DNA of 64,000 bases. Source: Flavobacteriales bacterium. Lineage in GTDB: Bacteria > Bacteroidota > Bacteroidia > Flavobacteriales_D > Sanyastnellaceae. Positions 4,593 to 30,147 of this stretch are shown here, in pieces (position 1 is the first letter of the stretch; every line of letters starts with the position of its first letter). The stretch covers positions 159,905 to 223,904 of the forward strand of contig JAIXWX010000002.1 of assembly GCA_027491075.1 (NCBI GenBank). The letters run 5' to 3'. The position numbers and the translations under genes are program-made. The notes under the pieces are model-generated. The model ran no database searches and had not been told where the DNA came from. It saw only the letters and a list, made by a program, of their open reading frames with translations.

Positions 4593-4632
4593 AAAAAACC
4601 GCGGTTGCTGTGTTGATTAGCAAACCGCGGTT
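4593..4632 (-). terminator. Intrinsic terminator of the 4649..7918 gene
   Basis: On minus strand: AACCGCGGTTTGCT-AATCAACAC-AGCAACCGCGGTT followed by TTTTATTTT; stem has one bulged base. Confidence 0.8.
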
Positions 4633-4648
4633 CTAATTCTGCGAAAAA

Positions 4649-7600: not shown

Positions 7601-7918
7601 CCCATTTTGAAGGGTATTCTCAGGAAAAATGATTTGTACCCCGTTTACCCCTGCATTCCCCAAAACGAAAAGTCCATTGTTATCCGTAGAGAATCCATTC
7701 AAGCTAAATGTCTGATAAGACAGGTCATTCGATCCATTGTAGAAGACTACTACTAGCCCGTCCAAAGAGGTGTTTGGAGCTCCGAGAAGTTCGACAAACT
7801 CAGAAGCATCATTGACCATATCAATTACAGGTTGATCACAGTCTAGCTCATTGATGACTACTTGGCTTTGTGCCGAAAAGGTTACGAAGAGCAGTGTTGC
7901 AAGTAAAAAACGCTTCAT
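4649..7918 (-). CDS. Multi-domain secreted protein: two lamin-tail-like domains, Calx-beta, OB-fold-like, PKD and type-A T9SS C-terminal sorting domain
   Basis: Start at MKRFLLATLLFVTFSAQSQVVINELD (7918); VVINELDCDQ...NDASEFVEL and LIISEYFEGSSFNKAIELYN (LTD); FIDGTALAGEDYV (Calx-beta); TLEWDLGDG (PKD); ITAYPVPASDFINLE...GVYTILCESDNASQTLRVIVK (T9SS type A). Confidence 0.85.
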   Translation of the reverse strand: MKRFLLATLLFVTFSAQSQVVINELDCDQPVIDMVNDASEFVELLGAPNTSLDGLVVVFYNGSNDLSYQTFSLNGFSTDNNGLFVLGNAGVNGVQIIFPENTLQNGADAVAIYSADISAFPASTPVTNTGLVDALVYGTLDLDDTVLLSVLTPGQIQADENAESTGTAVSLSRVPDGGSPFASSNFVRQAPTPGAFNAGATPTCIALDVVPMMFTEPITSCSNEDEDPYFFSLSGAPEVDETYFYALVDFSGLIVALSDIGSFDLDLYPIGQYEVFAVVYTGNLDGITIEEGDLISAVDSDDCIDVSNNSVDIVIEDCSLPVCVGGTITSEASFYSICNDGEADFIEVGLTGNEPQDFLFLLTTASNTIVQVLDAGLINLDNLPFGAYRIWGLSYYPNLDASTLEIGDDATLIATDGACVALTDNFITIQVLDCSFENGCESLIISEYFEGSSFNKAIELYNTSIYPIDLDNYEVFLYTNGSTTFNTVFAPEGILAGGETYVIAHPQAGPELLAIADAQSTVVNFNGDDAFVLQQNGVDIDAIGVIGQDPGDFWSVGSGTTQNFALTRLPFVTEGTTDWSVAANQYAVVSSNVYSTIGQHDFIPCSDVPVLGFEISAQSVEEGVGTYDVAIIAYNIPVQAQLELSFIDGTALAGEDYVNDGPQVLTFEPGNSQQTISIQVIDDLIEEDNVEFFTLQLTALNGEEILIPEFTLTIVANDQSYPLYSIAEVKGTDANGILDSSDVPCELRGIVHGINFNAQGIHFHLLDETGGIKVFSALENLGYSVSEGDSIHVQGIIDQFMGQSEIRPDAITLIDQNHPLFPSTVVTSITEENESSLVTIECVELVDQNQWTGEGSFFVVDAEGSGVFQILIDGDSEIFDEAVIDGRFTLTGIVEQMDESAPYDQGYVIYPRYMEDITEQVIASFAIANPVVFGDNGVTVDITNTSTNGATLEWDLGDGQTLEGDLSEYFYSYDALAPLAELTVTLIASLDGCTDASSITVDVVYSSVEENSSTNITAYPVPASDFINLEVSQQLNLVRVFDIAGKEVTRLSNVNIGTTRLDVGNYPSGVYTILCESDNASQTLRVIVK

Positions 7919-8019
7919 TTGATTGATTATTAGGACAACAAAAATAAGGTGAGAAAAGTACCAAACGGCATATCCCATTTATTTCTTATTATTGTAGTAA
8001 CCTTGACATTATTTGATAC

Positions 8020-9741
8020 ATGAAAAAAACTCTCCTAGCTTTCTTTTTAGCCTGTGCAAGTGTCTCTTGGAGCCAGTGCCCGACGTGTAATCCCGACCTT
8101 AGCTGCGTAAGCGCTGATGGCTCACCAACAGTTTGTCCTCTTGAACTACCTGCTGCGTTTTCCGGGGAATACTATGAAGAGGTACTCACCTTTTATATGC
8201 CCGCATCGGTTACGGATCCTGAATTCAATATTGCTGTGGATCTTGAACAAGTTACTATCACCTCCGTTACAGGACTGCCTTTCGGATTGAGCTATACTAC
8301 AAACAATGCGAATGGTGTCTACTTTCCACTCAACGGAGAAAATCATGGATGTGCCACCTTGTGCGGCACTGCACTCATTCCCGGTGTATATGATGTAAAT
8401 ATCAATGTTGATATTATCGCCTCCGTGGGTGGTTTCGAGATTACCGATAGTCGATCCTTCTCCTATGCCTTAATAGTGGAACAAGGAAGCGTTAGTACAG
8501 AAACGTTTACTTATTCTACTCCTGCAGGATGTGGAGAAACTGAAGTCCTTTTCGAGGCAACTTTATCTGGGACGGAAGCACAGCTTACTACCTATGCGTG
8601 GGATTTCGGAGATGGAAACACATCCTCTATTCTCAATCCTGCCTATACGTTTAATGAGCCCGGTGAATATGAGGTAAGTTTGACTACTTCTATATTCGAT
8701 TATACGCTGCAAACTGTGTCGTTGGCAAATATCAACGACAACGGAGATGGAGATACAGAGGAGTTTTTTAGCCCTCCTGCAGATCCCTATTTCATCATTA
8801 CAGACGGTCAAAACAATACCGTCTTTACATCGAGTACGGTGGACAACTCCATCAACCCTTCATGGTCTAATCTCAATATTCTTTTGGAAAACCCACCATA
8901 CAGTATCGCCTTTTGGGACGAAGACGTCGTCACAAGCAACGACCTACTAAGCACTTTTAATATCTCACTTTCTGAGGGTGAATTGGTCTTCAATAGTGGG
9001 GATGGCACCGTTGGTTCATTGGTTGTAACGCTCACTGCAAGCGGCGCACTAACAAACTCTTCTACGATTACTGTGTTTTCCGAACCCGACGTGACCATTA
9101 CTGCCCTTGGTTCAATACTCGGTGTTGCCGAGATTGGAGCGGCTTCCTATCAATGGTATGTCAATGGTATGCCAATAGCAAATGCTAACTCGCAAAATTT
9201 CTCAGCAAGTGACATTGGTGTTTACAGCTGCGAAGTTGTTAGTCAGCAGGGCTGCGAGGCAATAAGTGAGGATTTCGTTTTTTGTGGAACACTTCAACCC
9301 GTATTTGATCCTTTGGCCAATGAAGTTTATGTGGATGACGATTTTGATACCTATCAGTGGTATTACAACGGAATAGAAGTCCAAGGAGCAACTACATTTT
9401 ACTTGGTAAATCCGCTCGCAGGGAATTATTCTGTTTATGTAACCAATGACATTGGCTGCGCATTTCAAAGCAGTGTAATCATCGTTCCTGTGGTGTCCAT
9501 TAAAGAAATTTCCAAAGGAGAAATTTCTATTTATCCCAACCCATCCAATGGAATTTTTACAGTAGAAACAACAGAGCCAATTGAATGGGTAAAGGTTCTT
9601 AATAGTGTTGGTCAAGTCGTTCACACCTCCTCACCATTTCAAACCAAATGGCAGAATGTCACCAACTTTGAAAAAGGTTTTTATCTTTTAGAAATAAAGA
9701 CGACTAATGGGTTTTTCAAAGAAAAAGTACTCATTGATTAG
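8020..9741 (+). CDS. Secreted protein with PKD domain, C2-like domain, Ig-like segments and type-A T9SS C-terminal domain
   Basis: MKKTLLAFFLACASVSWSQ signal; YAWDFGDGNTSSILNPAYTFNEPGEYEVSL (PKD); ADPYFIITDG...INPSWSNLNI...YSIAFWDEDVVTSNDLL (C2-like); ISIYPNPSNGIFTVET...GFYLLEIKTTNGFFKEKVLID (T9SS). Confidence 0.85.
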   Translation: MKKTLLAFFLACASVSWSQCPTCNPDLSCVSADGSPTVCPLELPAAFSGEYYEEVLTFYMPASVTDPEFNIAVDLEQVTITSVTGLPFGLSYTTNNANGVYFPLNGENHGCATLCGTALIPGVYDVNINVDIIASVGGFEITDSRSFSYALIVEQGSVSTETFTYSTPAGCGETEVLFEATLSGTEAQLTTYAWDFGDGNTSSILNPAYTFNEPGEYEVSLTTSIFDYTLQTVSLANINDNGDGDTEEFFSPPADPYFIITDGQNNTVFTSSTVDNSINPSWSNLNILLENPPYSIAFWDEDVVTSNDLLSTFNISLSEGELVFNSGDGTVGSLVVTLTASGALTNSSTITVFSEPDVTITALGSILGVAEIGAASYQWYVNGMPIANANSQNFSASDIGVYSCEVVSQQGCEAISEDFVFCGTLQPVFDPLANEVYVDDDFDTYQWYYNGIEVQGATTFYLVNPLAGNYSVYVTNDIGCAFQSSVIIVPVVSIKEISKGEISIYPNPSNGIFTVETTEPIEWVKVLNSVGQVVHTSSPFQTKWQNVTNFEKGFYLLEIKTTNGFFKEKVLID

Positions 9742-9767: not shown

Positions 9768-9798
9768 AACGTCTAGCCCAAGGCTAGGCGTTTTTTTT
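9768..9798 (+). terminator. Intrinsic terminator downstream of 8020..9741
   Basis: AACGTCTAGCC-CAA-GGCTAGGCGTT + T8. Confidence 0.9.
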
Positions 9799-9965
9799 CG
9801 TCAAATGTGATTTCTACGTCATCAAAACCGTAAATCTTAACGATGAACACATTAGCGTTGAAAACATAAAAAACTTGATTTCATTAGACTAGTAATAAAA
9901 TTGAATTTTACCTACTGAACTAACCTACGCTTCTGAACACTTACCAAAGCGAGAATCACTTCACG

Positions 9966-12900
9966 ATGAAATTCAATACGAGTTTTAGCTTAAAAGCAAT
10001 AGTTGCCGTTTTATTAATGGCCGCTTCTATCCCCTTCAATGTTCTTCGCGCTCAATTCGATACTGAGTTTTGGATGCCTCCATTGTGGGAAGTAGGAGTT
10101 GGATCTAGAAATCAACCTTCCAATTTGTTTATCACGACGCCCTTCAACTTTCCGGTAACCGTGAATATCCAAACCTTGGATGGAACAACTTTCAATTTCA
10201 CTGGTACTGTTATAACCGGCACACCGCTAATAGTGCCCTTGAGCACTACACTTGGTCAGACCAACATCGCTGGTATAGCCAATACCAATCGTGGACTTAG
10301 AATAACTTCTTCAGCGCCAATTCAAGCGGTGCACCGGGTAGCGGGTACCGAAAATCAATCGCTAGTAACATTAAAGGGGAAAAATGCTCTTGGTGAAGAT
10401 TTTCGCTGTGGTTCTCAAGTGAGAAACTTAAATGCCAATTATGGACCGCTAGAAGTTCATTTCATCTCTGTCATGGCCACTGAAAATAATACACAAGTGC
10501 AATTTCAGACTCCCTTCACCATGAACGGAAATAGTGGGCCGCTTACCAACCCCCACACGATTACACTTCAGGCAGGGCAGAGCTATCTCATTCGTGGAAA
10601 CACTCCGATTGAGCATGTTTGCGGTGCTAGGGTCACTTCTAACAGACCCATTGTTGTTACGAGCGGTTCCACACATACAAGAATTTCAGGCTCAGGAGCT
10701 AATGCTGCCGATGCTGGAATAGATCAATTGGTTCCTGTAGGCCTTGCAGGAAACGAATGGGTTTGTATCAAAGGAAATAACAATAACCCATGGGATTATG
10801 CAATCATTGTTGCTACCCAAAACAACACCAATGTATTCATTGACGGCTCGGCCACACCTGCGGCAACTTTGAACGCGGGACAATTCTTTGACTGGACCAT
10901 GACAGGTTCCTTTGGTGCTCCTCATTACTTCCGTACGGATCGTCCAGCATTCTGCTATCACGTGAGCGGTTGCTCACTGGATGAAGAGGTAGATATGTCT
11001 GCTATGCCTGAAATCAGTTGCACGGGATCCAGATACATCGAGTTCTCCAAATTCAATGTAACGGGTCTAAATGAAATCATGCAGATTCTCATTCCTCCCA
11101 CTGCTGAGTCGACTTTACGCATCAACAACGTGGACTACGACTTATGGCCTGGTATTATAGTTAACACCGTACCCGGTCTGCCCGGCTGGAGAGCGGCTAC
11201 CATTCCAAATGCCAACGTACCTCTTGACGTGATTTTAACCTCTCAGGGTTTCTTTCATGCGGGTTGGTTGACAGGTAACAGCGCAACTGGTGCATTCGGC
11301 TACTTATCTGGATTCAATGATGCATTCGAGTTCCAAGATCCAAGTGCCGCTCAACCCATCCCAACTACCATTTACAACGTGGCAACTCTTTGCCAAGGTC
11401 AATCTGTAGATCACTGCCTTCGTGTGTTCAGTTGTGGCGCAAATAATTTTATTGATAGCTTCAATGGCAATGAGGGAAATATTGTTATCGCACCGCCATC
11501 TGCGCCTCACGATACATGTTTTAGATACACGGCCCCTTTCAATTTTGTAGGAAGGGATACCGTAACCTTTGTCGTGGAAAATGAATTCGGATTTGAAGGT
11601 TCCATTGATCTCGTGTTCACTGTAGTTAATCCCAATACACCTATAAATGCCGGCGCAGATCAATTTATTTGTAGTGGTTCATCTGCAACATTATCCGCCG
11701 TCAATCCAGATCCGCTAGCCGTTGGCTACTGGACTGTTGCGCAAGGAACCGGCACCCTAGTTAACCCGAACTCTCCAACTACGGTAGTGAACAACTTGTC
11801 CTTTGGCCCAAATAGTTTTGTTTGGCATCAGGACTATCCATCCTGTGGGATACAAAGGGTTGATCTTGTCCAGGTATTTAGATTTTCAGGCGCTCCGCCC
11901 ACTGCAAACGCGGGACCCGACGCCAACCTTTGCAGTGGAAATTCTTATACCATGCAGGCCAACGCTCCAGGTGTAGCGGCTACCGGCACATGGTCCATTA
12001 CAAGTGGAACCGCGACCATTCAAAACATCAATAGCAATACTTCCTTAGTCACAAACCTCGCAGTAGGTATCAATACCTTTGTTTGGAACATCAGCAACGG
12101 ACCTTGTCCCTTGGGTGAGTCTCAAGATGTGATGGTGATCAACGTCTTCAACCAAAACCATCCTGCGGCGAATGCTGGACCGGACCAAGAGGTTTGTCAA
12201 GGCTCTTTCTCATTCATTTCCGTTGCAGGAAATAATCCTATTGTTCCAGCTACGGGTCAATGGTCTGTGATAGCAGGAAGTGGAACGTTTGCAAATGCAA
12301 ATTCTGCTTCTACGACAATAACAGGATTAAGTATTGGAACCAATACCTTCCGATGGACTATCAATAATGGTCCTTGTGGGTTGCTAAACGATGAAGTGAC
12401 TATTGTCGTATTTAGTCCCTCTTCTCCAGCGGCAAATGCGGGTCCTGATCAAACGGTTTGTTTACCTGACAATTCTGCAACATTGGCGGGGAACTCTCCT
12501 ATAGCACCTGCAACAGGCACATGGTCAGTGATTCAAGGAACAGGGTCTTTCTCCAATGCAAACTCACCAAGTGCCACTGTTAGTGGCTTATCCCTTGGTA
12601 TCAACCGCTTTCGATGGACTCTAAATAATGGACCATGTCCGGGCGCAATCACAACTGATGAAGTGGTGATCACCGTATTCCCTGTTTCGCAGCCATCGGC
12701 AAATGCAGGGCCCGATCAAACATTCTGTTTCACCTCTACACCCATTACTGCAACTCTTTCAGGAAACGCCCCAACAGCACCAGGTACAGGGCAATGGTCT
12801 TTGATCAGTGGATCTGGAACCATTGCAAATCCCAACTCCGTCACTACTACCGTGACTGGATTAAGCTTAGGACAAAATGTGTTTCAATGGACCCTTAACA

Positions 12901-15900
12901 ATGGCTCTTGTGATGCGGCGGTGTTTGATCAAATGATTATTACAGTATTCAATGGTAGCTTATCAACAGCAAATGCTGGGGCAGACGGAGTAGTCTGTTT
13001 CCCTACCACGACATACACCTTTGCTGCTACCAACCCTGCGCTTCCTGCAAGTGGTTCTTGGTCTCAAGTTAGCGGACCTGCAGGAGCGGTAATTAGCACT
13101 CCATCGGCAGCAAATTCTCAAGTAACAAACCTTACAACGGGTACCTATGTGTTCCGATGGACCATCAACAATGGACCGTGCGGAAGCGCTGTATTCGACG
13201 AGATGACTCTCAGCGTATTCAATGCGCCTTCCCAAGTTTCCAACGCAGGACCAGATCAATTCCTCTGCTTTACAGGAATTGCTACCGTTACAACAACCAT
13301 GGCGGCCAACGCGGCTACAGCACCCTCTACAGGAATCTGGACCGTCGTTTCAGGAAGCGCTACCATCAACAACCCTACGAGTCCTACCACCACAGTAACG
13401 AACTTGCCCGTAGGGATTACCATCCTCCGTTGGACCATCAACAGTGGTACATGCGGAAGTTCGAATGATCTTGTAGCTTTATTTGTTTTCTCTGCAGGGC
13501 AAAGTGTGGCCAATGCAGGTCCTGACCAAAGCATTTGCTCATCACAAACCACTGTGAATCTTTCGGGAAGCCCTATCATTTCTCCTGCGACAGGTACATG
13601 GTCTCAGGTAAGCGGTCCCTCAACAGTAAGCTTCGGATCCGTAGACGCTCCGAATTCAACAGTTACTGGATTTGTGCCTGGAGTATATACCCTTCAATGG
13701 ACTGTAAATAATGGACCTTGTGCTACGCCCTCTATCCTTTCAGATCAAATAGTAATTACTGTATTTCCAGTTGGTCAAGCTCCTTCCAATGCAGGACCAG
13801 ATCAGAGCATTTGTAATACAACCTCATCTGTCAACTTAAATGGAAATGCGCCCACATTCCCTGCAACTGGACAATGGACGGTAGTAAATGGTAGCGGAAC
13901 GTTTACCAATCCAACATCTCCAATAACTTCTGTAACGGGAATGAGTGTTGGTACCAATTGCTATCGATGGACTATCAGCAACGGTCCTTGTGGCGCACCA
14001 ACTTTCGATGAGATTTGCATTACCGTTTTTGATAACAATCAAGCCATTGCTAATGCCGGCCCAGATCAAAATATATGCTTACCAACGAACACTGCCGCCT
14101 TTGCCGGTAACACCGCAGTATTTCCTGCAACGGGTTCGTGGACTCTTATCAATGGTACAGGAATCATCGCGAACAATACCGTCCAAAATACAAGTGTAAA
14201 CGGACTTTCATTGGGAGTCAATACATTCCGTTGGACCATCAACAATGGATCCTGCGGGACCATAACAACCGATGATGTAGTGATCACTTTGTTTAATAAT
14301 GCCCTTGCTCCACCGAATGCAGGTCCTGATGCTTCACTTTGCACTCCCAACAGTACGTATACAATGCAGGGTAGTTCAGTAAGCGCTCCAGCTCTCGGAG
14401 TTTGGACATTGGTTTCAGGAACGGGAACAATAGGAAGCCCCAACTCTCCAACCGCAAATATTTCAGGTCTAGGAATTGGAGCCAATGTATTTCAATGGAC
14501 CACTTTAAATGGTCCTTGCCCCGCTGGCTTGAACTTCGATCAAATGACCATTTTTGTATTTGATGAAAACCAATTGAATGCGAATGCGGGACCAGATCAG
14601 TTTTTATGTTCCACTGGGTCTCCAGTAAACACTACAATGGCAGGAAGCCCAGTTGTATTCCCAGGAAGCGGAACGTGGACAATCATTCAAGGAAGCGGAA
14701 ACATCATTTCTCCAAATAGCCCAACTACAACCATCACCAATCTCGGAATTGGCGAGAATAGATTCGCCTGGACAGTCAATAACGGCCCATGCGCAAACGC
14801 TGTTACCTCCGACATTGTATCCATATTTGTATTCTCTGGGTCTCAGGCCTCCGCAAATGCGGGTCCAGACCAAAATTTGTGTTCAACAAACCCGAACACT
14901 ACACTTGCTGCGAACTCCGTCATTTTTCCTGGCACTGGAACATGGTCTGTGGTTCAAGGCACAGCCACCTTTGACAATACTTCAAATCCAAATAGCGCGG
15001 TAACTGGTCTTGCAACTGGGACCAATATTCTTCGATGGACCATTAACAATGGTCCATGTGTTCCAGGTATCACGTTTGATGAGGTAACGATTATTGTATT
15101 TGACAACAATCAACCCGCTGCCGTTGCTCCTTCAGATTTCTCAACGTGCTCGAATGCTGGACCAATAACGTTGACTGGTAATGCATTTGCTTTTCCTGCA
15201 ACGGGAGGGTGGTCTTTGTTTAGTGGAACTGGAACCTTAGCGAATGCCAATACTTCTATAACGACAGTATCTGGTTTGGGTTTAGGCACGAACGTATTTC
15301 AATATACCATCAACAATGGACCATGTGGAGCACCTACTGTTGATCAAGTAGCAATTACTGTTTTCTCTGCAGATCAACCTATCGCTAATGCGGGGTCGGA
15401 TCAAAGTTTATGTTTACCAACGAACTCCGCATTCCTCAATGGGTCACCGTTAATCTCTCCCGCCACGGGTACTTGGACTCTTGTTTCTGGAACAGGTATA
15501 ATTAGCAGCCCCAACTCATCAAGCACAACGGTTACGGGGCTTTCCATTGGTCAAAATATTTTCCGCTGGACTATTTCCAATGGACCTTGCTCACCAGCAA
15601 CGACTTTAGATGAAGTAACAATTACTATTTTCAATAATCTGCAAGCAGCAGCGAATGCTGGACCTGATCAGTCTATTTGTGAGCCAGTAACGTCTGCTAC
15701 TCTTGCTGGTAATGCTGCGCCATTCCCAGCGTCTGGTCAATGGACTTGGATTTCAGGACCTACCACACCCTCGATTGTTTCTCCTTCCAGTTCGAATACT
15801 ACAGTAAATGGTCTTGGTGTGGGCGCCAATGTATTTCGCTGGACTGTTTTGAATGGTCCTTGCGCTCCATCATCTACGACAGACGATGTTACGATTTTAA

Positions 15901-18900
15901 TCTTCGATGACAATCAACCTGCAGCCAACGCTGGTCCGGATCAATTCCTTTGTTCACCAACATTCAACACACAATTTGCTGCGAACAATGCAATTTTTCC
16001 AGCCACTGGCACGTGGGCCCTTGTGAGCGGTTCTGGCACGATCAACAACCCCAACTCACCAACGTCCACTGTAACGGGTTTGAGTATTGGTGAAAATGTA
16101 TTTCGTTGGACCATCAGCAACGGACCGTGCATTGGCGCTGTTACTGAAGATTTAGTAAGCATCTTTGTGTTCGATAGTGCTGCTCCTTCTGCCAATGCAG
16201 GTGCCGACCAATCTATTTGTACACCTGCATCATCCGTAACGATGACTGCCAATGCGGCAATTTTCCCTGGCGTAGGAACATGGACATTGGTTTCCGGCGG
16301 GGGAACCATAATCAATCCAAATTCTCCTACAACTGCTATTACCAACTTGTCTGTAGGCGAGAACGTTTTTAGATGGACCATTAATAATGGAAATTGTGGA
16401 ACTAGTATTACTGAAGACCTCGTGAGCATTTTTGTATTCAATGAATTCTCACCCGTCGCCAATGCAGGTAGTGATCAAGATCTTTGTACACCTATAACTT
16501 CTACTACCTTAGTTGCATCGTCCCCTATCTTCCCCGCTAGTGGGTTCTGGTCACTCATTTCAGGTACTGGAACAATTATTTCTCCTAATAACCCAACAAC
16601 ATTAGTTACCGATTTGAGCATTGGTCCAAATGTTTTCCGTTGGACGAGCAATAATGGACCTTGCGCCACAGGAATAACAACTGATGATGTTATCATCACT
16701 ATATTCAATGGAGGCGCTTCTGCACCAAATGCTGGCCTAGATCAGGAACTTTGTTCTCCTGACTTTGATACTTCATTAAACGCAGACGCCGCTGTTTTCC
16801 CTGGTATAGGTAGCTGGAGCGTCACGTCTGGAACAGGTACTTTCACCAACATCAATGATCCGAACAGCAACGTCACTGGACTTTCTATTGGAATCAATGT
16901 TTTCAGGTGGAGTGTAAATTATTCTACATGCGGATCTCCATTCGATGAGGTTTCGATCATTGTTTATGACTCCTCTCAATTGCCTTCCAATGCGGGGCCT
17001 GATCAGGAACTTTGTACGCCAAATACCAGTACAAACCTTCAAGCCAATAGTGTCATTGCTCCCGGTATAGGCACTTGGACCTTAATAGAAGGGTCGGGTG
17101 CTATCTCTAACCCAAACGACCCAAATACACTTGTAACCAATTTAGCTGTCGGAGAAAATATCTTTGTTTGGACCATTGATAACGGTCCTTGTTTAGTAGC
17201 CCCATTTACAACTGATAGCGTTACCATTTGGGTGTTTGATGAACTCAACCCAATGGCTAATGCGGGACCTGACCAAGAACTTTGTACACCTACAACCAGT
17301 GCAAGCCTAACCGGTAGCTCTATCATATTTCCAGCATCGGGTGCGTGGACTATAATTCAAGGAAGCGGCACCATCACTGAACCTACTAGCCCGAGTACCA
17401 CTATTACTGGTTTATCTGTTGGTGAAACGATCGTTCAGTGGACAGTGAGCAACGGCCCTTGTGCTAATTCGATTACTTCTGATCAGATATCGCTTTTCTT
17501 ATTTGATCAAAATCAAGCCCCGGCAAATGCAGGTCCTGATCAATTTATTTGTACGCCTACCACTTCAACGACCTTAACTGGAAATGCCGTTACATTCCCA
17601 GCCACAGGTCAATGGGTATTACTAAGTGGCACAGGAACCATCAGCAATCCGAATAATCCGATAACTACTGTAAGCGGTTTATCAATAGGGGCGAATACGT
17701 TCCAATGGTCCATCAATGATGGTCCTTGTGCTGTCGGATTCACCTCCGATGTTGTAACAATTTTCGTCTATGATGAAAATAATCCGAATGCAAATGCGGG
17801 ACCTGACCAAGAAATCTGCACACCAAACTCGGCAGTGAATATGGCTGCGAGTACGTATACTTTCCCTGCTACAGGTCAATGGACAATCGTTTCTGGATTC
17901 GGGAATATTATCAATCCAAATGACCCAAATACCGCTATTACCAACCTTCCTGTTGGAACAAATGTGTTTCAATGGACAATAGACAATGGACCTTGTGCAA
18001 ATGGCATAACTAGCGATATTGTGGAAATTCATGTGTTTGATCAGAATGCCCCTCTTGCTAATGCAGGAGCAGATCAAGAATGGTGTGATCCTACTTCATC
18101 AACTATACTAAATGCTACTGCTCCCGCAATCCCAGGCATTGGATCATGGAGCGTGCTTTCCGGTCCGCCGTCGATTGTGATTGCTAATGTAAACGACCCT
18201 AACTCCGAAATTTCAGGTCTCGAAGTAGGAGAAACCGTGTTGTTATGGACGGTTTACAACGGGCCTTGTAATAACACCAATTCATTCGACCAGGTTTCTA
18301 TATTCCTCTTTGATGATAATCAAACTGTTGCTGATGCTGGAGATGATCAACAAATATGTACTCCTCAAACCTCTACTACAGTATCAGCAAACATTCTTAT
18401 TTTCCCTGCAACGGGACAGTGGACATTACTGAGTGGTGGCGGTGTGATTGAAAATCCAAGTTCACCATTGACCCAAATCAATGATTTGCCTGTTGGTGTG
18501 AATACATTCTGTTGGACCATTGACAATGGACCTTGTACTCCGCCAACGACGACTGATTGCGTAACCATTGAAGTGTTTGACTCTGAGCAGTCGGACGCCT
18601 TTGCTGGAGAAGATCAAGAGCTTTGTCTTCCAACTAATGAAACTACACTAACGGGCTCTGCTGTTGTAGGCGCTTCAGCAGGCGCATGGACATTGATCCA
18701 AGGAAGCGGAGATATACTAGCTCCGAATTCGGCTGTTGCCACAGTGACCAACCTTCAGCAAGGAGAAAATATTTTCAGATGGACTGTTGACAATGGTTCA
18801 TGCGGATCGACGTTTGATGAAGTATCAATATACCTATTTGATCCGAATGCGCCTGAGGCGAATGCTGGTGATGATGCAACATACTGCACTCCAACAAGCA

Positions 18901-21900
18901 CACACGCGATGAATGCCAATACGCCTGCCTCTCCAGGAGTTGGAACTTGGGAAATCGTCTCTGGACCAGGATTCACAGGAACCGGAACCATTGACAATGT
19001 AAACAACCCAAACGCAAACATCAGTGGTCTAGTGATTGGAGAAAATAGATTTTCTTGGACCATTTATAATGGACCGTGCGAACCACCAACAACTGACTTC
19101 ATTAGTATTTTCATTAATGATGAGAACCAGCCTGCTGCCGATGCAGGAAGCGACCAAGAAATTTGCCTTCCTCAAACTGCTGTAGATATGGACGCCAATA
19201 TGGCCATATTCCCTGCTTTCGGAACATGGACACTCCTTGAAGGTGACGGAAATATTATTAGTATAAACGATAGCACAACTTCAATCATTGATCTAGCAGT
19301 TGGAGAAAATATATTCCAATGGACTATCGAAAATGGGGCTTGCAATCCTCCGATCACTAGCGATTTGGCATCCATATTCGTTTTTGATCCTGATGCTCCT
19401 GAAGCTGATGCAGGACCAGATCAAAGTTTCTGCGAACCCGTTTCCACGACTAACTTACAAGCGCTAACCCCTTCAACACCTGGCTTTGGCACGTGGACAT
19501 TGGTAGGCGGAAACGGCACCATCGATAACATCAATGATCCTAACACATTAATAACGGATCTTGAAGTTGGAGAGAACTGCTTCCTATGGACAGTCTATAA
19601 CGGACCATGCGAAGAACCAACAGAAGACTTGGTGTGCATATATATTTTCCCAGAAGATCAGCAACCCGCCAATGCAGGTCCTGATCAACAATTATGCACT
19701 CCAAATACAGAAACACAAATGAACGCCAACAGCGTGACTTTCCCCGCTGTAGGAAATTGGGTGCTCCTTTCTGGACAAGGAGATCCTATAAATCCTTCTG
19801 ACCCCAATACGGTAGTCACTAATCTTGGACTTGGAATAAACGAATTCATGTGGGTTATAGACAATGGTTCTTGTGAGAATCCTTTGTCAACGGATGTGGT
19901 TACCATTAGCGTGTTTGATAATACTCTCGAAGACGCAAACGCTGGTGCAGATCAAGCATTCTGCTTACCAACGAATTCAACCACCGTGAACGGATCCAAT
20001 ATCTCTGCCGCTGCTACTGGTCTTTGGTACAACATCGATGGTGGAGGCGACATTGAAAATCCAACTTCGCCAACTACAGCTATAACCAATTTGCCAATTG
20101 GAAATAACACCTTTGTTTGGTTTGTAGACAATGGCCCATGCGGCACGAGCAGTGACACAGTGAATATTGCAATATTTAATCCTGATGAAGTGATTGCAAT
20201 TGCTGGAAATGACGCATCCTACTGCACTCCTTCAGACTCACATTGTATGAGCGCTAGTTCGCCGTCAGAACCCGCAATTGGAACTTGGGTGCTGATAACT
20301 GGTACGGGAAATATCAACGACATCCACGATCCGAATACATGCATCACTGGATTAACCGTTGGAGAAAATATCTTCATGTGGTGCATAGACAATGGACCTT
20401 GTGGATTAACGTGCGACGTTATATCCATCTTCGTCTATAACATAAACACTCCAAATGCGAATGCCGGGGAAGACATTGAAATTTGCCTTCCGCAGGATGA
20501 AGTGAACATGAATGCCTCCGCCGCCGAATTCCCCGCTATTGGAATTTGGACACTCATTGGAGGTGAGGGATACATTACCGATTTAAATAATCCACTTGGT
20601 TTAATGGACTCTCTTGAACTCGGTGTAAACACCTTCGTTTGGACTGTAAACAATGGAGTGTGTCCTAATGGTATAACCTCTGATACCGTTGAGGTGCGTG
20701 TGTTTGACCCTGGATTACTTCCTCCAAATGCAGGTCCAGATCAATTCATTTGTACTCCTCTAAACTCCGTGATTATGGCGGGCAATGAACCAGCTGCTCC
20801 AAGCTTTGGATATTGGAATCTTATCAACGGCAGCGCAACAATCATCGATTCATTAAGTGGAAATACGATTGTAACAGACCTCGCAGTAGGTATCAATGAA
20901 TTTGTATGGACATACTACAATTCCAGTTGCGAAAACTCTGCTCCCGCCGATACCATGCGTGTTTTGGTGTATGATCAAAATCAACCTCCAGCGAATGCTG
21001 GACCAGATCAGGAATGGTGCTTCCCAACAAATAGCACAGTGATGAGCGCCAATCCGCCAATAGTACCTGCAGTTGGTCAATGGACGCTGATTTCCGGTTC
21101 CGCTACATTCAGCGACATCTTCGATCCGAATGCTGCCGTAACCAATCTCGCGCCCGGCACCAATGTCTTTGTTTGGACAATCGATAATGGCCCATGCCCA
21201 GATGCAATTACAACAGACACATTAGAAATTAGAATATTCTTACCGGACGCTCCGGTAGCGAATGCTGGTGAAGATCTAAGTCTGTGTACACCCGTTGATT
21301 GTATCGAAATGCAAGCATTAGAGCCTACGGATCCACAGACAGGAACTTGGTCTTTCATATCTTCAGTGAATGGCTCGGGACCAATTTCAAACGGAGCATT
21401 AAACGACCTCAATGATCCAAACGCAGAACTCTGTGCACTTGCTGTAGGGGTGCATACTTTGGAATGGTCGATCTACAATGGTCCGTGCAATAACAATACC
21501 TCCGATCAAGTGGTCATTTCTGTTTATGACAACACCGCGCCAGCTGCAAATGCCGGCGAGGATATTTTCCTTTGTGCTCCAGAAAGTAGTACCGTGCTCG
21601 CCGCCAACAGCGCTGTGTTCCCTGGAGTTGGCAGCTGGTCAATAGCATCCGCTCAAGGACCTAATGGACCATTAAACTCTGGATCATTCAGCAACTTCAA
21701 TGATCCGCAAGCTGCTATTTCTGGTCTCGAAATAGGAATCTATACCCTCGTTTGGACCATCGACAACGGACCTTGCGGTATGCCTACCTCCGACACGTTG
21801 ATAATTCAAATAAACAATCCACTTTCACCCAATGCAGACGCAGGTCCCGATCAGAGCTTCTGTTTGAACTTTGCAGATGCAACTATGAATGCAAACGTTC

Positions 21901-22922
21901 CTCTCTTCCCAGCAACAGGAACTTGGACCGCAATCAGTTTTGATCCAACCGGTACAATCACTGACGTGAATGATCCAGCTACTACCATTACTTCAATTCC
22001 ACTGAATGAACACCTATTCGTGTGGTGCATTGATAATGGTGTTTGTGCGAACACTGTATCATGTGACACCTTATCCATTTATGTAAACGACAGCACCATT
22101 GCTGCTGCCAATGCCGGAAATGACATCGTGTTCTGTGGTGCACCTGACTCGCTGATTATGCAAGCGAGCATTGCAGTAGGACTTGCTGAAGGATACTGGA
22201 ACTATGACGACGGAACATACATCTTCTCAGACTCCACGTTCCACGAGAGTATCGTTTATGGTTTCCAAGTTGGAGAAAATACATTTACATGGACCGTCGA
22301 TAACGGTGCCTGTGGAATTTCCTCGGACGAGGTGACTTTCTTAGTATACGACCCTGGACTTCCCGCAGCAGATGCAGGAGAAAGTCAAGCGATTTGTGAA
22401 AGCAAATTCCAACCGTTCAATCTAACCGCAATTGCTCCCGATCCTCCCGCTACTGCATATTGGGATATAATCAGCGGTCCAATACTCATTTCTGACACCT
22501 TGGCTGCGGATGCTCAAGTAATTTCACTTGGTCAAATTGAGGAACAATTAGTGGATGTGCCAAGCACACTGGTTTGGATAGTTGATAATGGTCTTTGTGG
22601 AATCACAACAGATACCGCGGTGTACATTCTTGAAGACTGTCTAACCGTAGAAGTTCCAGACGCCTTCTCTCCTAATGGAGACGGGGTGAACGATATCTTC
22701 TTCATTCCTAACTTAGAAAGTTATCCAAGACATTCATTAAAAATATTCAACCGTTGGGGAACACAGGTATTTGAAGCGGCCCCGTACCCTAACAACTGGG
22801 ACGGAACTTCTCAGCATCCTGCTACAATTGGCGAGGAATTACCTGTTTCCACCTATTACTATATCCTTGACCTAGGAAATGGTGAAGAAGCCTTCCACGG
22901 ATTTGTATATCTAAAACGATAA
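9966..22922 (+). CDS. Giant (4318 aa) secreted repeat adhesin-like protein with gliding motility-associated (type-B T9SS) C-terminal domain
   Basis: Signal-like N-term; IgGFc-binding-like N-terminal region (IQAVHRVAGTENQSLVTLKGKNALGEDFRCGSQ...NNTNVFIDGSATPAATLNAGQFFDW); cadherin-like YTAPFNFVGRDTVTFVVENEFG; about 41 repeats; C-term VEVPDAFSPNGDGVNDIFFIPNLESYPRHSLKIFNRWGTQVFEAAPYPNNWDGTSQ...YYYILDLGNGEEAFHGFVYLKR. Confidence 0.93.
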   Translation: MKFNTSFSLKAIVAVLLMAASIPFNVLRAQFDTEFWMPPLWEVGVGSRNQPSNLFITTPFNFPVTVNIQTLDGTTFNFTGTVITGTPLIVPLSTTLGQTNIAGIANTNRGLRITSSAPIQAVHRVAGTENQSLVTLKGKNALGEDFRCGSQVRNLNANYGPLEVHFISVMATENNTQVQFQTPFTMNGNSGPLTNPHTITLQAGQSYLIRGNTPIEHVCGARVTSNRPIVVTSGSTHTRISGSGANAADAGIDQLVPVGLAGNEWVCIKGNNNNPWDYAIIVATQNNTNVFIDGSATPAATLNAGQFFDWTMTGSFGAPHYFRTDRPAFCYHVSGCSLDEEVDMSAMPEISCTGSRYIEFSKFNVTGLNEIMQILIPPTAESTLRINNVDYDLWPGIIVNTVPGLPGWRAATIPNANVPLDVILTSQGFFHAGWLTGNSATGAFGYLSGFNDAFEFQDPSAAQPIPTTIYNVATLCQGQSVDHCLRVFSCGANNFIDSFNGNEGNIVIAPPSAPHDTCFRYTAPFNFVGRDTVTFVVENEFGFEGSIDLVFTVVNPNTPINAGADQFICSGSSATLSAVNPDPLAVGYWTVAQGTGTLVNPNSPTTVVNNLSFGPNSFVWHQDYPSCGIQRVDLVQVFRFSGAPPTANAGPDANLCSGNSYTMQANAPGVAATGTWSITSGTATIQNINSNTSLVTNLAVGINTFVWNISNGPCPLGESQDVMVINVFNQNHPAANAGPDQEVCQGSFSFISVAGNNPIVPATGQWSVIAGSGTFANANSASTTITGLSIGTNTFRWTINNGPCGLLNDEVTIVVFSPSSPAANAGPDQTVCLPDNSATLAGNSPIAPATGTWSVIQGTGSFSNANSPSATVSGLSLGINRFRWTLNNGPCPGAITTDEVVITVFPVSQPSANAGPDQTFCFTSTPITATLSGNAPTAPGTGQWSLISGSGTIANPNSVTTTVTGLSLGQNVFQWTLNNGSCDAAVFDQMIITVFNGSLSTANAGADGVVCFPTTTYTFAATNPALPASGSWSQVSGPAGAVISTPSAANSQVTNLTTGTYVFRWTINNGPCGSAVFDEMTLSVFNAPSQVSNAGPDQFLCFTGIATVTTTMAANAATAPSTGIWTVVSGSATINNPTSPTTTVTNLPVGITILRWTINSGTCGSSNDLVALFVFSAGQSVANAGPDQSICSSQTTVNLSGSPIISPATGTWSQVSGPSTVSFGSVDAPNSTVTGFVPGVYTLQWTVNNGPCATPSILSDQIVITVFPVGQAPSNAGPDQSICNTTSSVNLNGNAPTFPATGQWTVVNGSGTFTNPTSPITSVTGMSVGTNCYRWTISNGPCGAPTFDEICITVFDNNQAIANAGPDQNICLPTNTAAFAGNTAVFPATGSWTLINGTGIIANNTVQNTSVNGLSLGVNTFRWTINNGSCGTITTDDVVITLFNNALAPPNAGPDASLCTPNSTYTMQGSSVSAPALGVWTLVSGTGTIGSPNSPTANISGLGIGANVFQWTTLNGPCPAGLNFDQMTIFVFDENQLNANAGPDQFLCSTGSPVNTTMAGSPVVFPGSGTWTIIQGSGNIISPNSPTTTITNLGIGENRFAWTVNNGPCANAVTSDIVSIFVFSGSQASANAGPDQNLCSTNPNTTLAANSVIFPGTGTWSVVQGTATFDNTSNPNSAVTGLATGTNILRWTINNGPCVPGITFDEVTIIVFDNNQPAAVAPSDFSTCSNAGPITLTGNAFAFPATGGWSLFSGTGTLANANTSITTVSGLGLGTNVFQYTINNGPCGAPTVDQVAITVFSADQPIANAGSDQSLCLPTNSAFLNGSPLISPATGTWTLVSGTGIISSPNSSSTTVTGLSIGQNIFRWTISNGPCSPATTLDEVTITIFNNLQAAANAGPDQSICEPVTSATLAGNAAPFPASGQWTWISGPTTPSIVSPSSSNTTVNGLGVGANVFRWTVLNGPCAPSSTTDDVTILIFDDNQPAANAGPDQFLCSPTFNTQFAANNAIFPATGTWALVSGSGTINNPNSPTSTVTGLSIGENVFRWTISNGPCIGAVTEDLVSIFVFDSAAPSANAGADQSICTPASSVTMTANAAIFPGVGTWTLVSGGGTIINPNSPTTAITNLSVGENVFRWTINNGNCGTSITEDLVSIFVFNEFSPVANAGSDQDLCTPITSTTLVASSPIFPASGFWSLISGTGTIISPNNPTTLVTDLSIGPNVFRWTSNNGPCATGITTDDVIITIFNGGASAPNAGLDQELCSPDFDTSLNADAAVFPGIGSWSVTSGTGTFTNINDPNSNVTGLSIGINVFRWSVNYSTCGSPFDEVSIIVYDSSQLPSNAGPDQELCTPNTSTNLQANSVIAPGIGTWTLIEGSGAISNPNDPNTLVTNLAVGENIFVWTIDNGPCLVAPFTTDSVTIWVFDELNPMANAGPDQELCTPTTSASLTGSSIIFPASGAWTIIQGSGTITEPTSPSTTITGLSVGETIVQWTVSNGPCANSITSDQISLFLFDQNQAPANAGPDQFICTPTTSTTLTGNAVTFPATGQWVLLSGTGTISNPNNPITTVSGLSIGANTFQWSINDGPCAVGFTSDVVTIFVYDENNPNANAGPDQEICTPNSAVNMAASTYTFPATGQWTIVSGFGNIINPNDPNTAITNLPVGTNVFQWTIDNGPCANGITSDIVEIHVFDQNAPLANAGADQEWCDPTSSTILNATAPAIPGIGSWSVLSGPPSIVIANVNDPNSEISGLEVGETVLLWTVYNGPCNNTNSFDQVSIFLFDDNQTVADAGDDQQICTPQTSTTVSANILIFPATGQWTLLSGGGVIENPSSPLTQINDLPVGVNTFCWTIDNGPCTPPTTTDCVTIEVFDSEQSDAFAGEDQELCLPTNETTLTGSAVVGASAGAWTLIQGSGDILAPNSAVATVTNLQQGENIFRWTVDNGSCGSTFDEVSIYLFDPNAPEANAGDDATYCTPTSTHAMNANTPASPGVGTWEIVSGPGFTGTGTIDNVNNPNANISGLVIGENRFSWTIYNGPCEPPTTDFISIFINDENQPAADAGSDQEICLPQTAVDMDANMAIFPAFGTWTLLEGDGNIISINDSTTSIIDLAVGENIFQWTIENGACNPPITSDLASIFVFDPDAPEADAGPDQSFCEPVSTTNLQALTPSTPGFGTWTLVGGNGTIDNINDPNTLITDLEVGENCFLWTVYNGPCEEPTEDLVCIYIFPEDQQPANAGPDQQLCTPNTETQMNANSVTFPAVGNWVLLSGQGDPINPSDPNTVVTNLGLGINEFMWVIDNGSCENPLSTDVVTISVFDNTLEDANAGADQAFCLPTNSTTVNGSNISAAATGLWYNIDGGGDIENPTSPTTAITNLPIGNNTFVWFVDNGPCGTSSDTVNIAIFNPDEVIAIAGNDASYCTPSDSHCMSASSPSEPAIGTWVLITGTGNINDIHDPNTCITGLTVGENIFMWCIDNGPCGLTCDVISIFVYNINTPNANAGEDIEICLPQDEVNMNASAAEFPAIGIWTLIGGEGYITDLNNPLGLMDSLELGVNTFVWTVNNGVCPNGITSDTVEVRVFDPGLLPPNAGPDQFICTPLNSVIMAGNEPAAPSFGYWNLINGSATIIDSLSGNTIVTDLAVGINEFVWTYYNSSCENSAPADTMRVLVYDQNQPPANAGPDQEWCFPTNSTVMSANPPIVPAVGQWTLISGSATFSDIFDPNAAVTNLAPGTNVFVWTIDNGPCPDAITTDTLEIRIFLPDAPVANAGEDLSLCTPVDCIEMQALEPTDPQTGTWSFISSVNGSGPISNGALNDLNDPNAELCALAVGVHTLEWSIYNGPCNNNTSDQVVISVYDNTAPAANAGEDIFLCAPESSTVLAANSAVFPGVGSWSIASAQGPNGPLNSGSFSNFNDPQAAISGLEIGIYTLVWTIDNGPCGMPTSDTLIIQINNPLSPNADAGPDQSFCLNFADATMNANVPLFPATGTWTAISFDPTGTITDVNDPATTITSIPLNEHLFVWCIDNGVCANTVSCDTLSIYVNDSTIAAANAGNDIVFCGAPDSLIMQASIAVGLAEGYWNYDDGTYIFSDSTFHESIVYGFQVGENTFTWTVDNGACGISSDEVTFLVYDPGLPAADAGESQAICESKFQPFNLTAIAPDPPATAYWDIISGPILISDTLAADAQVISLGQIEEQLVDVPSTLVWIVDNGLCGITTDTAVYILEDCLTVEVPDAFSPNGDGVNDIFFIPNLESYPRHSLKIFNRWGTQVFEAAPYPNNWDGTSQHPATIGEELPVSTYYYILDLGNGEEAFHGFVYLKR
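11640..22640 (+). repeat. About 41 tandem ~89-aa protein repeats ([S/P]xNAGPDQxxCxP...FPATGxWTxxSGxGTIxNPNSPxTTVTGLxxGxNxFxWTINNGPCxxxxDxVxIxVF)
   Basis: Counted by eye on the conserved A(N/D)AGxDxxxC anchor; period about 265 bp; each unit has one N-terminal and one C-terminal (NNGPC) cysteine. Confidence 0.92.
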
Positions 22923-22926
22923 GCGC

Positions 22927-23856
22927 ATGCAGAAAATTAAATCACTAGTTATCATCTTCCTGTTGATCATCAGTCAGGCAATGCGCTTAGCTGCTCAGCA
23001 AGACCCCATGTTCTCCCAGTACATGTTCAATATTTTGAGCATCAATCCAGCGTATGCAGGAAGTGCGGACCGAATCAGTGCCGTAGGTATTTATCGCTCG
23101 CAATGGGTAAAATTCGATGGAGCTCCAATAACACAAACGGTTACTGTGCATAGTCCCTTGCGCAAAGAAAGCTTGAGCATTGGCGGAACCGTCATCAATG
23201 ATAAACATGGCCCAGTAAATCAGACAGCGATATTTGCAGACATCAGCTATCGCATATTCCTAGATAATTCTAAACTCGCTTTCGGACTGAAAACAGGATT
23301 GAATTTGTACAGTGCGAATCTTTTAGAGTTAAATCCATTCATGGATAATGACCAGGCCTTTGCCGCAAATTTGTCCGCAAAACCATTGCCCAACTTCGGA
23401 TTTGGAATGATGTGGTATAGCAAGAGATGGTATGTTGGTTTAAGTTCTCCCCGCCTTCTACAAAACAAAATCATTGAAGGAGACATTCCCGACTTCCGCA
23501 ACAATCGAGAGCGAATGCATACTTTCCTCATAGCAGGTTATGTGTGGGATTTGAATTACTACGTCAAATTCAAGCCAACTATTCTACTCAAAGCGGTAAA
23601 TGGTGCGCCTCCAGGCTTCGATGTAACAGCCAACTTTATGTTCTATGATCGCTTGTGGCTTGGCGCAATGTGGCGCTGGAATGATGCAGTGGGAGCACTG
23701 ATTCAATATGAAATCAATAACAAACTGAAGTTTGGTTATGCCTATGACTACATCACCAGCGATCTCGGAAGATATACCTCCGGTAGCCATGAATTAATGA
23801 TTGGACTTGACTTTGGCAAAGGAAGCAAAGGAGATGTATCACCACGTTTCTTCTAA
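22927..23856 (+). CDS. Type IX secretion system membrane protein, PorP/SprF family
   Basis: MQKIKSLVIIFLLIISQAMRLAAQQDPMFSQYMFNILSINPAYAGSADRISAVGIYRSQWVKFDGAPITQTVTVHSPL...GGTVINDKHGPVNQTAIFADISYRI; classic PorP/SprF motif. Confidence 0.95.
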   Translation: MQKIKSLVIIFLLIISQAMRLAAQQDPMFSQYMFNILSINPAYAGSADRISAVGIYRSQWVKFDGAPITQTVTVHSPLRKESLSIGGTVINDKHGPVNQTAIFADISYRIFLDNSKLAFGLKTGLNLYSANLLELNPFMDNDQAFAANLSAKPLPNFGFGMMWYSKRWYVGLSSPRLLQNKIIEGDIPDFRNNRERMHTFLIAGYVWDLNYYVKFKPTILLKAVNGAPPGFDVTANFMFYDRLWLGAMWRWNDAVGALIQYEINNKLKFGYAYDYITSDLGRYTSGSHELMIGLDFGKGSKGDVSPRFF

Positions 23857-23866
23857 AAAAATAACC

Positions 23867-26041
23867 ATGAGTATCCGCTATTCTCTTATTATATTATTAT
23901 TGGCTTTGTGCTGCTTTTCTCAAGAATCATATGCACAAAAAGCCAAATTAAAAGTCGCTCAGACGTATTACGATCAGTTTGACTTTAAAACGGCTATTGA
24001 AATATACCGCGACATTCTCAGCAATCCCAAATTCGAGAATGACACTACCACCCTACGTCTCGCAGCTGATTGTGAGTTTAAATTGGCCCAGTTTGCTCAA
24101 GCTGAAGCATTGTTAACAAGACTCAACGCTCTTCCAACGGCAAATACAGAAGACATGCACCGCTTAGCAGATGTGTATAAAATCCAAGGCAAGTACCTAG
24201 AAGCCGTTGATACCTACAGAAAGATTTTATTGAAAAACCCCAAAGATGAAATAGCCCTTGAATACAGTGAAACCCCAGATTTCGCAAATAAGCTTCGAAA
24301 GGACTCTACGATGTATGAATTAAAAAATTCAGAAATCAATTCTGCGTCTTGCGATTTTGCTCCCGGCTTCTTTGTAAATGGAAAACTCATCTTCTCTTCT
24401 TCAAGAGGACTGGGTGTGGGCGCAAGAAGAAACTACAATTGGAACGAACAACCATACCTCAATAACTACTTGGCAAGCATTGGTTCTGATAGTTCGCTTT
24501 CCAATGTGGTGGTGATGGGATCTGATATCAACTCCAGATATCACGAAGGAACTGTAACCTACTCACCTAGCGATAATCTTCTCTACTTCACAAGAAACAA
24601 TCTCCTGAATGGTAATGTGAAAAAATCAAAAGATGGCCGATTGTATCTAGGTATCTACTATGGAGAAACATCATCGGGAGGAAACGTCTCCGATTTGAAG
24701 CCGTTCCCCTTTAACAATAAAGAATATACACTTCAACATCCAACCCTTACTTCCTCAGGGAAAAAAATGTTCTTCTCGTCTAACAAACCAGGAGGCTTCG
24801 GTGGAATGGATCTTTACTTTTCCATAAAGGAAAATGATGCTTGGCAAGAACCTAAAAACATGGGTGAAAAAATCAACTCCCCAGGCGATGATGTCTTCCC
24901 TTTTATCATCAACGACTCCACCCTTTACTTCTCTTCCAATGGCCGTCTCGGACTTGGGGGATTGGATATATTCTATGTTCAGCTTAACGGAGATACCGTA
25001 GTACAAAATTTAGGATATCCAGCAAATTCAGCATACGATGATTTTGGACTGGTCTTCTTCCCAAATGAAATCACAGGTTACCTCGTAAGCAATCGTCCAG
25101 GAGGAAAAGGAGATGATGATATTTATGAGTTCCGAATCTCCCCTCCTGACTTCATCAATATCAAAGGCCGAGTGGTTGATGCGGCAACGCTAATACCTCT
25201 CAAGAATGCCCTGGTAACAATCACCAATCAAGATGGCTCCGTCGTACAAGCCTTGACCGACGACCAAGGTATCTATACCCTCACTGCTCCATATAAATCA
25301 TTTGTGAAAATCGAAGGAGAAAAAAAGGACTACGAAAATGGAAATGTGGAATTGGCCACGAACCCAAGATCCACAGATTATACTGCGTCTGACATTGTGC
25401 TCAAAAAAGTCTCTTTCCTCGCTACGGGTAAAGTCGTTTATGACGTAGATGGTTCGCCTGCTCCTGGAGCAATAGTGCGCTTGCGTGATAAGACGGGTAT
25501 GCAACTAGACTCTTGCTATGTCAAGGAAGATGGATCCTATAAACTAGCACTCGAAGACAACAAAGAATACATTCTAGAAGCTTATAAAAAAGATTATGTG
25601 CTGCTTACAAAAGACGTTTCAAGTAAGAGCAATGGCCAGCGCTTCGTCAATACAGACTTTAGACTGTTCAAACTAGAAAAAGGAACTGTAGTACGCTTAG
25701 ATAATATTTATTATGACTACGGAAAATCAGACATTAGATCCGATGCTGCGCAGGAACTTAACAAACTCGTTCGAATACTGCAAGATAATCCAACTATGAA
25801 AATCGAGTTGAGTTCGCATACGGATGCGCGAGGCGGAGATGCTTACAACTTAAAGCTCTCCGATGCCAGAGCTGCAAGCGCTGTAAAATATATTAATTCC
25901 CAAGGAATAGATGCTTCACGCCTTGTTGCAAAAGGATATGGAGAAACAAAGCTCCTAAATCGATGCGCAAACAATGTACAGTGTTCCGATGAAGAACACC
26001 AATTCAATAGAAGAACGGAGTTTAAGATTCTAGATATCTAA
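23867..26041 (+). CDS. OmpA family protein with PD40/WD40-like beta-propeller, CarboxypepD_reg-like and C-terminal OmpA peptidoglycan-binding domain (PorE-like architecture)
   Basis: MSIRYSLIILLLALCCFSQESYAQ; FSSNKPGGFGGMDLYFSIKENDAWQEPKNMGEKINSPGDDVFPF; VKGRVVDAATLIPLKNALVTI; NIYYDYGKSDIRSDAAQELNKLVRILQDNPTMKIELSSHTDARGGDAYNLKLSDARAASAVKYI. Confidence 0.93.
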   Translation: MSIRYSLIILLLALCCFSQESYAQKAKLKVAQTYYDQFDFKTAIEIYRDILSNPKFENDTTTLRLAADCEFKLAQFAQAEALLTRLNALPTANTEDMHRLADVYKIQGKYLEAVDTYRKILLKNPKDEIALEYSETPDFANKLRKDSTMYELKNSEINSASCDFAPGFFVNGKLIFSSSRGLGVGARRNYNWNEQPYLNNYLASIGSDSSLSNVVVMGSDINSRYHEGTVTYSPSDNLLYFTRNNLLNGNVKKSKDGRLYLGIYYGETSSGGNVSDLKPFPFNNKEYTLQHPTLTSSGKKMFFSSNKPGGFGGMDLYFSIKENDAWQEPKNMGEKINSPGDDVFPFIINDSTLYFSSNGRLGLGGLDIFYVQLNGDTVVQNLGYPANSAYDDFGLVFFPNEITGYLVSNRPGGKGDDDIYEFRISPPDFINIKGRVVDAATLIPLKNALVTITNQDGSVVQALTDDQGIYTLTAPYKSFVKIEGEKKDYENGNVELATNPRSTDYTASDIVLKKVSFLATGKVVYDVDGSPAPGAIVRLRDKTGMQLDSCYVKEDGSYKLALEDNKEYILEAYKKDYVLLTKDVSSKSNGQRFVNTDFRLFKLEKGTVVRLDNIYYDYGKSDIRSDAAQELNKLVRILQDNPTMKIELSSHTDARGGDAYNLKLSDARAASAVKYINSQGIDASRLVAKGYGETKLLNRCANNVQCSDEEHQFNRRTEFKILDI

Positions 26042-30039: not shown

Positions 30040-30147
30040 CGGCGTTTCGAAATTAGAACACATAAGTCATTCCGAAATTTCATATCCGATCAAAAACTCA
30101 CACAACAGTGTGAACAGTCGCTCTAGATTTAGACTACCTTAGCAGGT

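Follow-up and report, generated by a model that had tools for sequence, protein, structure and literature searches.

The 64,000-nucleotide stretch of DNA analyzed here, from a freshwater-type Flavobacteriales bacterium (GCA_027491075.1, contig JAIXWX010000002.1, positions 159,905 to 223,904; hereafter the window), carries three consecutive genes that encode a giant type B adhesin of the type IX secretion system (T9SS), a PorP/SprF-family shuttle, and a PorE-like protein (Table 1). A preliminary description made from the sequence alone had proposed that these genes form a self-contained secretion, anchoring, and adhesion module acting in attachment, gliding, or predation. The open reading frames (ORFs) confirmed its positions, gene order, plus-strand orientation, and gaps, with only 4 bp separating the adhesin gene from the PorP/SprF gene (22922/22927). 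The first TTG of the PorE-like ORF (23801) overlaps PorP, and the ATG at 23867 yields both a 10-bp gap and a signal peptide; this ATG, 10 bp past the PorP stop, is probably the true start.

Table 1. Features of the three-gene locus and its upstream region (window coordinates)
Feature	Position	Strand	Remarks
Giant type B T9SS adhesin	9966..22922	+	4318 aa, 449 kDa, pI 4.05, only 9 Lys
Adhesin signal peptide, residues 1-29 (..NVLRA-Q)	9966..10052	+	Read from translation
Adhesin N-terminal head, residues ~30-560, all-beta	10053..11645	+	Pfam and AlphaFold2 model
41 PKD-like repeats, 87-96 aa, residues 561-4228	11646..22649	+	One Cys pair each
Type-B C-terminal sorting domain, residues 4229-4318	22650..22919	+	CHU_C / TIGR04131
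PorP/SprF-family shuttle, 309 aa, no cysteine	22927..23856	+	
Shuttle C-terminal tail motif SPRFF	23839..23853	+	PR[YF]x tail linked to downstream PorE-like gene in homologues
PorE-like protein (TPR, PD40, CarboxypepD_reg, OmpA), 724 aa from ATG	23867..26041	+	
OmpA-like peptidoglycan-binding domain of PorE-like protein	25709..25978	+	PF00691, 65 bits
Intrinsic-terminator-like hairpin after upstream gene	9768..9792	+	11-bp stem and T run; shuffles average 0.2
Weak candidate Bacteroidota-type promoter	9875..9903	+	TTG-N18-TAAAATTG, one mismatch to TAnnTTTG

The adhesin begins with a Sec signal peptide (residues 1-29), as judged by reading the translation only, and its C-terminal sorting domain (CTD) scored above the cutoffs of both CHU_C (94 bits; cutoff, 27) and TIGR04131 (55.5 bits; cutoff, 35), consistent with the type B assignment made earlier. 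While the ORF, the repeats, and the CTD of the secreted repeat protein were thus as first described, its head had been missed: residues 140-389 (10383-11132) match IgGFc_binding (PF17517) at 114 bits (cutoff, 25.6). AlphaFold2 modeled the head with a mean predicted local distance difference test (pLDDT) score of 84. No sequence match to the head was found in the Protein Data Bank (PDB), and a Foldseek search with the model returned only generic Ig-like chains, with template modeling (TM) scores of ≤0.17 on query length and no convincing PDB fold. A literature search for IgGFc heads combined with T9SS likewise found none. Ten orthologues of the head occur in the window's family (56-77% identity), and in another genome of this family an ORF of 6232 aa includes a related head of the IgGFc type (G118:C1:48167-49216). 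The head may serve as a binding tip for attachment.

Between the head and the CTD lie the repeats, whose unit of ~89 aa contains two invariant cysteines. Pfam matches to the adhesin comprised K319L-like_PKD, IgGFc_binding, and CHU_C and no SprB-repeat family, in agreement with the earlier view that the repeat family is distinct from that of SprB, and a three-repeat AlphaFold2 model consisted of Ig/PKD domains (pLDDT 95). The repeats share a mean pairwise identity of 42% (22-63%), and a DNA-level tandem repeat search returned nothing; these results indicate that the repeats are real but old, and they rule out a recent repeat expansion. Acidity per repeat climbs toward the cell-proximal end, with correlations of 0.84-0.90 in the window's genus and weaker ones in other genera; the net number of acidic residues per repeat is ~2.6 at the tip and reaches 11 at the base.

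Repeat number varied among orthologues in discrete steps. Complete arrays, counted at loci L336-L344 plus window positions 11646-22649, contained exactly 31 (7 genomes), 41 (2 genomes), or 51 (1 genome) repeats, and arrays of the same repeat number aligned one to one without gaps. Differences came in blocks of five: relative to the 31-repeat arrays, the window has R5-9 and R31-35 as extra repeats, and the 51-repeat array shows five-repeat blocks at repeats 18-22 and 27-31. The five-repeat blocks were stable over most gap costs, with the highest cost fusing 18-22 and 27-31 into a block of ten. Repeat similarity at an offset of five was also raised (permutation P < 0.001). The five-repeat steps would reflect either a structural period of five domains or an old five-repeat duplication that seeded unequal exchange.

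The three-gene arrangement is conserved. All nine complete orthologues retain the triplet, with identity of the PorE-like protein down to 42%, and each of the nine has a shuttle with the C terminus SPR[FY]F. Searching named genomes with the window shuttle as the query gave a set of 80 related loci, biased by that query, in the Flavobacteriales, Cytophagales, Chitinophagales, Bacteroidales, and Saprospirales; the nearest named record was a Flavobacteriales metagenome bin (shuttle identity, 78%). A CTD gene, a PR[YF]x-tailed PorP gene, and a PorE-like gene occurred in this order at 72 of the 80 loci. Since gene order is kept in the complete orthologues and at these loci, a chance arrangement can be excluded.

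Pfam and NCBIfam domains confirmed the identities originally given to the second and third genes. The shuttle matches PorP_SprF (PF11751) at 280 bits (cutoff, 22.3) and TIGR03519 at 276 bits (cutoff, 90.55), and the third protein has the domain order of PorE, namely, TPR, beta-propeller (PD40), CarboxypepD-like, and OmpA. In SprF, a Cys-X-Cys motif in the periplasmic C-terminal tail bonds Cys343 of GldK and is required for gliding (PMC12635249). This motif is not present in the window shuttle, which has no Cys anywhere in its 309 aa.

We surveyed the C termini of 184 distinct PorP/SprF proteins from ~40 genomes, most of which belong to the same class, a sample that leans to high-scoring members among the matches listed. 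A PorE-like gene lay downstream of 55 of the 184. The PR[YF]x C terminus was found in 42 of these 55 shuttles but in only 4 of the 129 others; of the four exceptions, L254 has an overlapping PorE-like gene that was missed by the gap limit, and two precede gldK. Leaving out the genome that contains the window, which had prompted the idea, gave a tally of 39/50 versus 3/120. Sorted by neighbor, PR[YF]x tails accounted for 43/56 PorE-linked shuttles and 0/64 of those with a CTD gene only, all 16 gldJ-linked PorP proteins had a Cys in the last eight residues, and 16/25 gldK-linked PorP proteins ended in [PV]R[YFI][FL]. A Pagel-type test on the PorP tree indicated that the PR[YF]x tail depends on the PorE neighbor (likelihood ratio, 25; P = 5e-5).

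Several PorP proteins carry a peptidoglycan-binding module on the same end. Four of the sampled proteins have a C-terminal fusion to an OmpA domain with TSP_3 repeats (L197:2233-3954, L198:2143-3945, L218:1283-3229, and L253:2181-3797), and L183:217-2379 and, weakly, L275 are fused to SPOR domains; most of the fusions follow a type-B CTD gene. Peptidoglycan-binding modules have thus been attached repeatedly in evolution to this barrel end, which supports an anchoring model. The periplasmic C-terminal tail of PorP/SprF proteins might even act as an address label, with PR[YF]F directing the shuttle to a PorE-like anchor, a Cys tail to the gliding track, and a fused OmpA or SPOR domain to peptidoglycan directly, a tentative generalization to which we give slightly less than an even chance. 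As a separate observation, L268 and L289 contain tandem PorP/SprF pairs with no CTD or PorE-like gene called nearby.

In the host genome (3.02 Mb, 99.7% complete), the type-B CTD search gave 42 matches, and 14 genes belong to the PorP/SprF family; their gene context was read in PorP neighborhoods. A CTD gene precedes 11 of the 14, with gaps of -4 to 31 bp, and a PorE-like gene follows 5 of the 14. The adhesin's "own" PorP is therefore a real adjacent shuttle but not a special one, and uniqueness of the locus is ruled out by four further PorP/PorE-like pairs, three of them directly after a type-B CTD gene. Nor is the locus self-contained, since SprA, GldK, GldL, GldM, and PorU, and with them the translocon, motor, and ring genes, are encoded elsewhere in the genome; given these core genes and the paralogous units, it is one of several units that depend on a shared T9SS. 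At most one-third of the 42 type-B CTD genes adjoin a shuttle, so most must share one, and shared shuttles for orphan substrates have been reported in Flavobacterium johnsoniae (PMC12618676). Distances among CTDs correlated with those among their PorP proteins within the host genome (rho, 0.59; Mantel P = 0.003) and in four other genomes (0.71-0.87), the correlation not being significant in 2 of 7 tested genomes. This pattern supports the view that CTD and shuttle form cognate pairs and, indirectly, a putative need for the shuttle in secretion of the adjacent substrate.

Two paralogous loci in this genome bear on these components. At L115:4273-12761 (C33), a 2499-aa adhesin of the same design, in which an IgGFc head and a type-B CTD flank 20 repeats belonging to the window adhesin's repeat family, has its own PorP, ending in ..VYCGF, and no PorE-like gene, and thereby offers a natural contrast on anchoring. 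A PorP/SprF gene at L109:5916-8729 (C22), encoding a two-Cys tail (FACRQKKTKFRTIACPSF), precedes a gldJ-like gene and is divergent from porU. Another own-genome PorP gene precedes gldK-gldL-gldM; the host GldJ-like protein scored 449 bits, just under the cutoff of 458. GldK of the host carries Cys326 and Cys344, so the gliding-track chemistry seems available, yet the window shuttle is without the partner residue.

Taken together, these results suggest that the locus is probably an operon that encodes a T9SS type B surface fiber, static and anchored to peptidoglycan, with a role in attachment rather than gliding. The adhesin would enter the periplasm via Sec and pass the SprA translocon encoded elsewhere, after which the adjacent, cognate PorP/SprF barrel would take it out and keep hold of its type-B CTD. 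The periplasmic SPRFF tail of the shuttle would then dock the PorE-like protein through its TPR or propeller part, and the OmpA domain of that protein would hold peptidoglycan. The 41 Ig/PKD-like domains would form a disulfide-locked stalk that keeps the IgGFc-type head well away from the cell. Since the shuttle is without Cys and has a PorE-like partner, a static role is likely and the fiber is predicted to be immobile; a static state has been proposed for type B proteins that have a PorE-like partner (PMC9143113, PMC12618676). Of the module first described, the substrate, the cognate shuttle, and the PorE-like anchor are backed by conserved order, the CTD-shuttle correlation, and published work (PMC9143113, PMC12618676); its self-contained character is not supported.

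Several observations weigh against this interpretation. The third protein falls below the PorE model NF052230 (359 bits; cutoff, 600) and is therefore PorE-like only, and its signal peptide (MSIRYSLIILLLALCCFSQESYAQ) has no lipobox; a lipobox was found in the first 70 aa of 7/55 sampled PorE-like ORFs and in the L342 and L344 orthologues. Thirteen of the 55 PorE-linked shuttles are without a PR[YF]x ending. The mutual exclusivity of Cys tails and PorE neighbors, albeit strong by Fisher's test (2e-10), gave P = 0.51 on the PorP tree and is not claimed as an independent signal, and strict independent pairs left ~2 informative cases, so that the tail association is largely clade inherited. The tail-PorE rule is accordingly put forward as a strong association among the surveyed sequences with limited independent replication.

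Among the alternatives, a prey- or particle-catching fiber related to GhpA of Aureispira sp. CCB-QB1 (PDB 9flp, 9fly), copies of which would bundle through the repeat stalk while the heads catch cells, is unlikely. The C-terminal third of GhpA has homologous PKD-like repeats and a type-B CTD: the window repeat profile matched GhpA with an E value of 1e-180 (1e-95 for the window adhesin alone), adhesin residues 4101-4318 cover the last repeats and CTD of GhpA, and the solved GhpA base (9fly, 36% identity) was the best PDB match of the three-repeat model in both sequence and fold. However, significant phmmer similarity was confined to GhpA 4069-5898 (the last 1830 residues), leaving the N-terminal two-thirds with the hook unmatched, and a search with the head profile gave no GhpA match. 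Ixotrophy kills by the type VI secretion system (T6SS) (review PMC11205867), and a search of the host genome for its sheath protein VipB/TssC also gave no match. PKD-type repeats are, moreover, widespread stalk material. The stalk is thus GhpA-like, but the results do not support predation with a hook as in Aureispira.

Distinctly unlikely is an SprB-like gliding adhesin, in which the shuttle would ride the GldJ/GldK/GldN track and drag the fiber along the cell. In its favor, GldK, GldL, GldM, and a GldJ-like protein are all encoded in the genome, and the adhesin resembles SprB in its giant size, its type B CTD, and a shuttle gene directly downstream. Unlike the SprB-SprF pair, however, the window combines another repeat family with a shuttle that has no tail Cys pair and a PorE-like gene that follows after 10 bp. 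Gliding is lost when either Cys of the SprF tail is replaced (PMC12635249), and the mobile F. johnsoniae substrates tested lie outside PorE-containing operons (PMC12618676). The gliding role raised in the preliminary description is therefore disfavored.

It is equally improbable that the PorE-like protein is merely co-transcribed as a general envelope-stability protein that does not bind the shuttle: it does score best against the outer membrane integrity family CHU_0125 (424 bits, under the cutoff of 620) rather than PorE, and many related proteins are encoded elsewhere in the genome, but its gene keeps a PorP neighbor in the 9/9 complete orthologues and 72/80 distant loci, shuttle tails depend on the presence of a PorE-like gene, and PorE and PorP interact directly in Porphyromonas gingivalis (PMC9143113).

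Upstream of the operon, the terminator-like hairpin appears to separate the preceding gene from the three genes. The -7 octamer of the candidate promoter occurs at chance frequency in the window, leaving it a candidate only, and a sigma-70 promoter scan of the upstream region returned nothing above chance. No convincing promoter or terminator signal was found between the three genes, which are presumably co-transcribed. Directly upstream, two divergent genes encode type A CTD proteins with LTD/Calx-beta and PKD domains (4649-7978, minus strand, and 8020-9741, plus strand), so that both T9SS cargo classes are neighbors here. Elsewhere in the window, 27379-30063 (minus strand) and 57035-59923 (plus strand) encode long proteins, of 894 and 962 aa, respectively, that have no Pfam match.

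Two points may reach beyond this locus: the rule for shuttle tails and the change of repeat number in fives. Whether a type B adhesin is dragged or wall fixed is known for few such proteins, in F. johnsoniae, and Bacteroidota genomes hold many of them. Papers from 2022 and 2025 provide the relevant pieces separately, as PorE anchoring, cognate shuttles, and Cys-tail track attachment; with the conserved SPRFF-type C terminus and the fusions of PorP to OmpA or SPOR domains, these pieces come together as one readable rule, and if the address-label reading is true, tail sequence alone would predict whether an adhesin is fixed or mobile. The quantized arrays of 31, 41, and 51 repeats, with their blocks of five, raise the question of how bacterial stalks of such great length are assembled and stay in register.

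The anchoring that we favor resembles the P. gingivalis PorE-PorP-PG1035 complex, in which a TPR/propeller/CRD/OmpA protein links a PorP barrel, and the type B protein that it holds, to peptidoglycan (PMC9143113). The window has the same parts, known here from their genes; unlike P. gingivalis, its host spreads the role over 14 PorP paralogues, and its anchor is without a lipobox and under the PorE cutoff. The triplet layout is itself already known, since five such operons have been published for F. johnsoniae (PMC12618676). What our analysis adds is the tail-PorE association, the PorP-OmpA/SPOR fusions, the 31/41/51 arrays, and the relationship of the repeats to the GhpA base. Fjoh_3952-Fjoh_3951-Fjoh_3950, which encode a type B substrate, an SprF-like shuttle, and a PorE-like protein and for which static surface behavior has been proposed (PMC12618676), comprise the same three families in the same order as the window, a likeness at the level of families. 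Unlike that operon, the window combines this layout with a 4318-aa adhesin that bears an IgGFc-type head on 41 PKD repeats.

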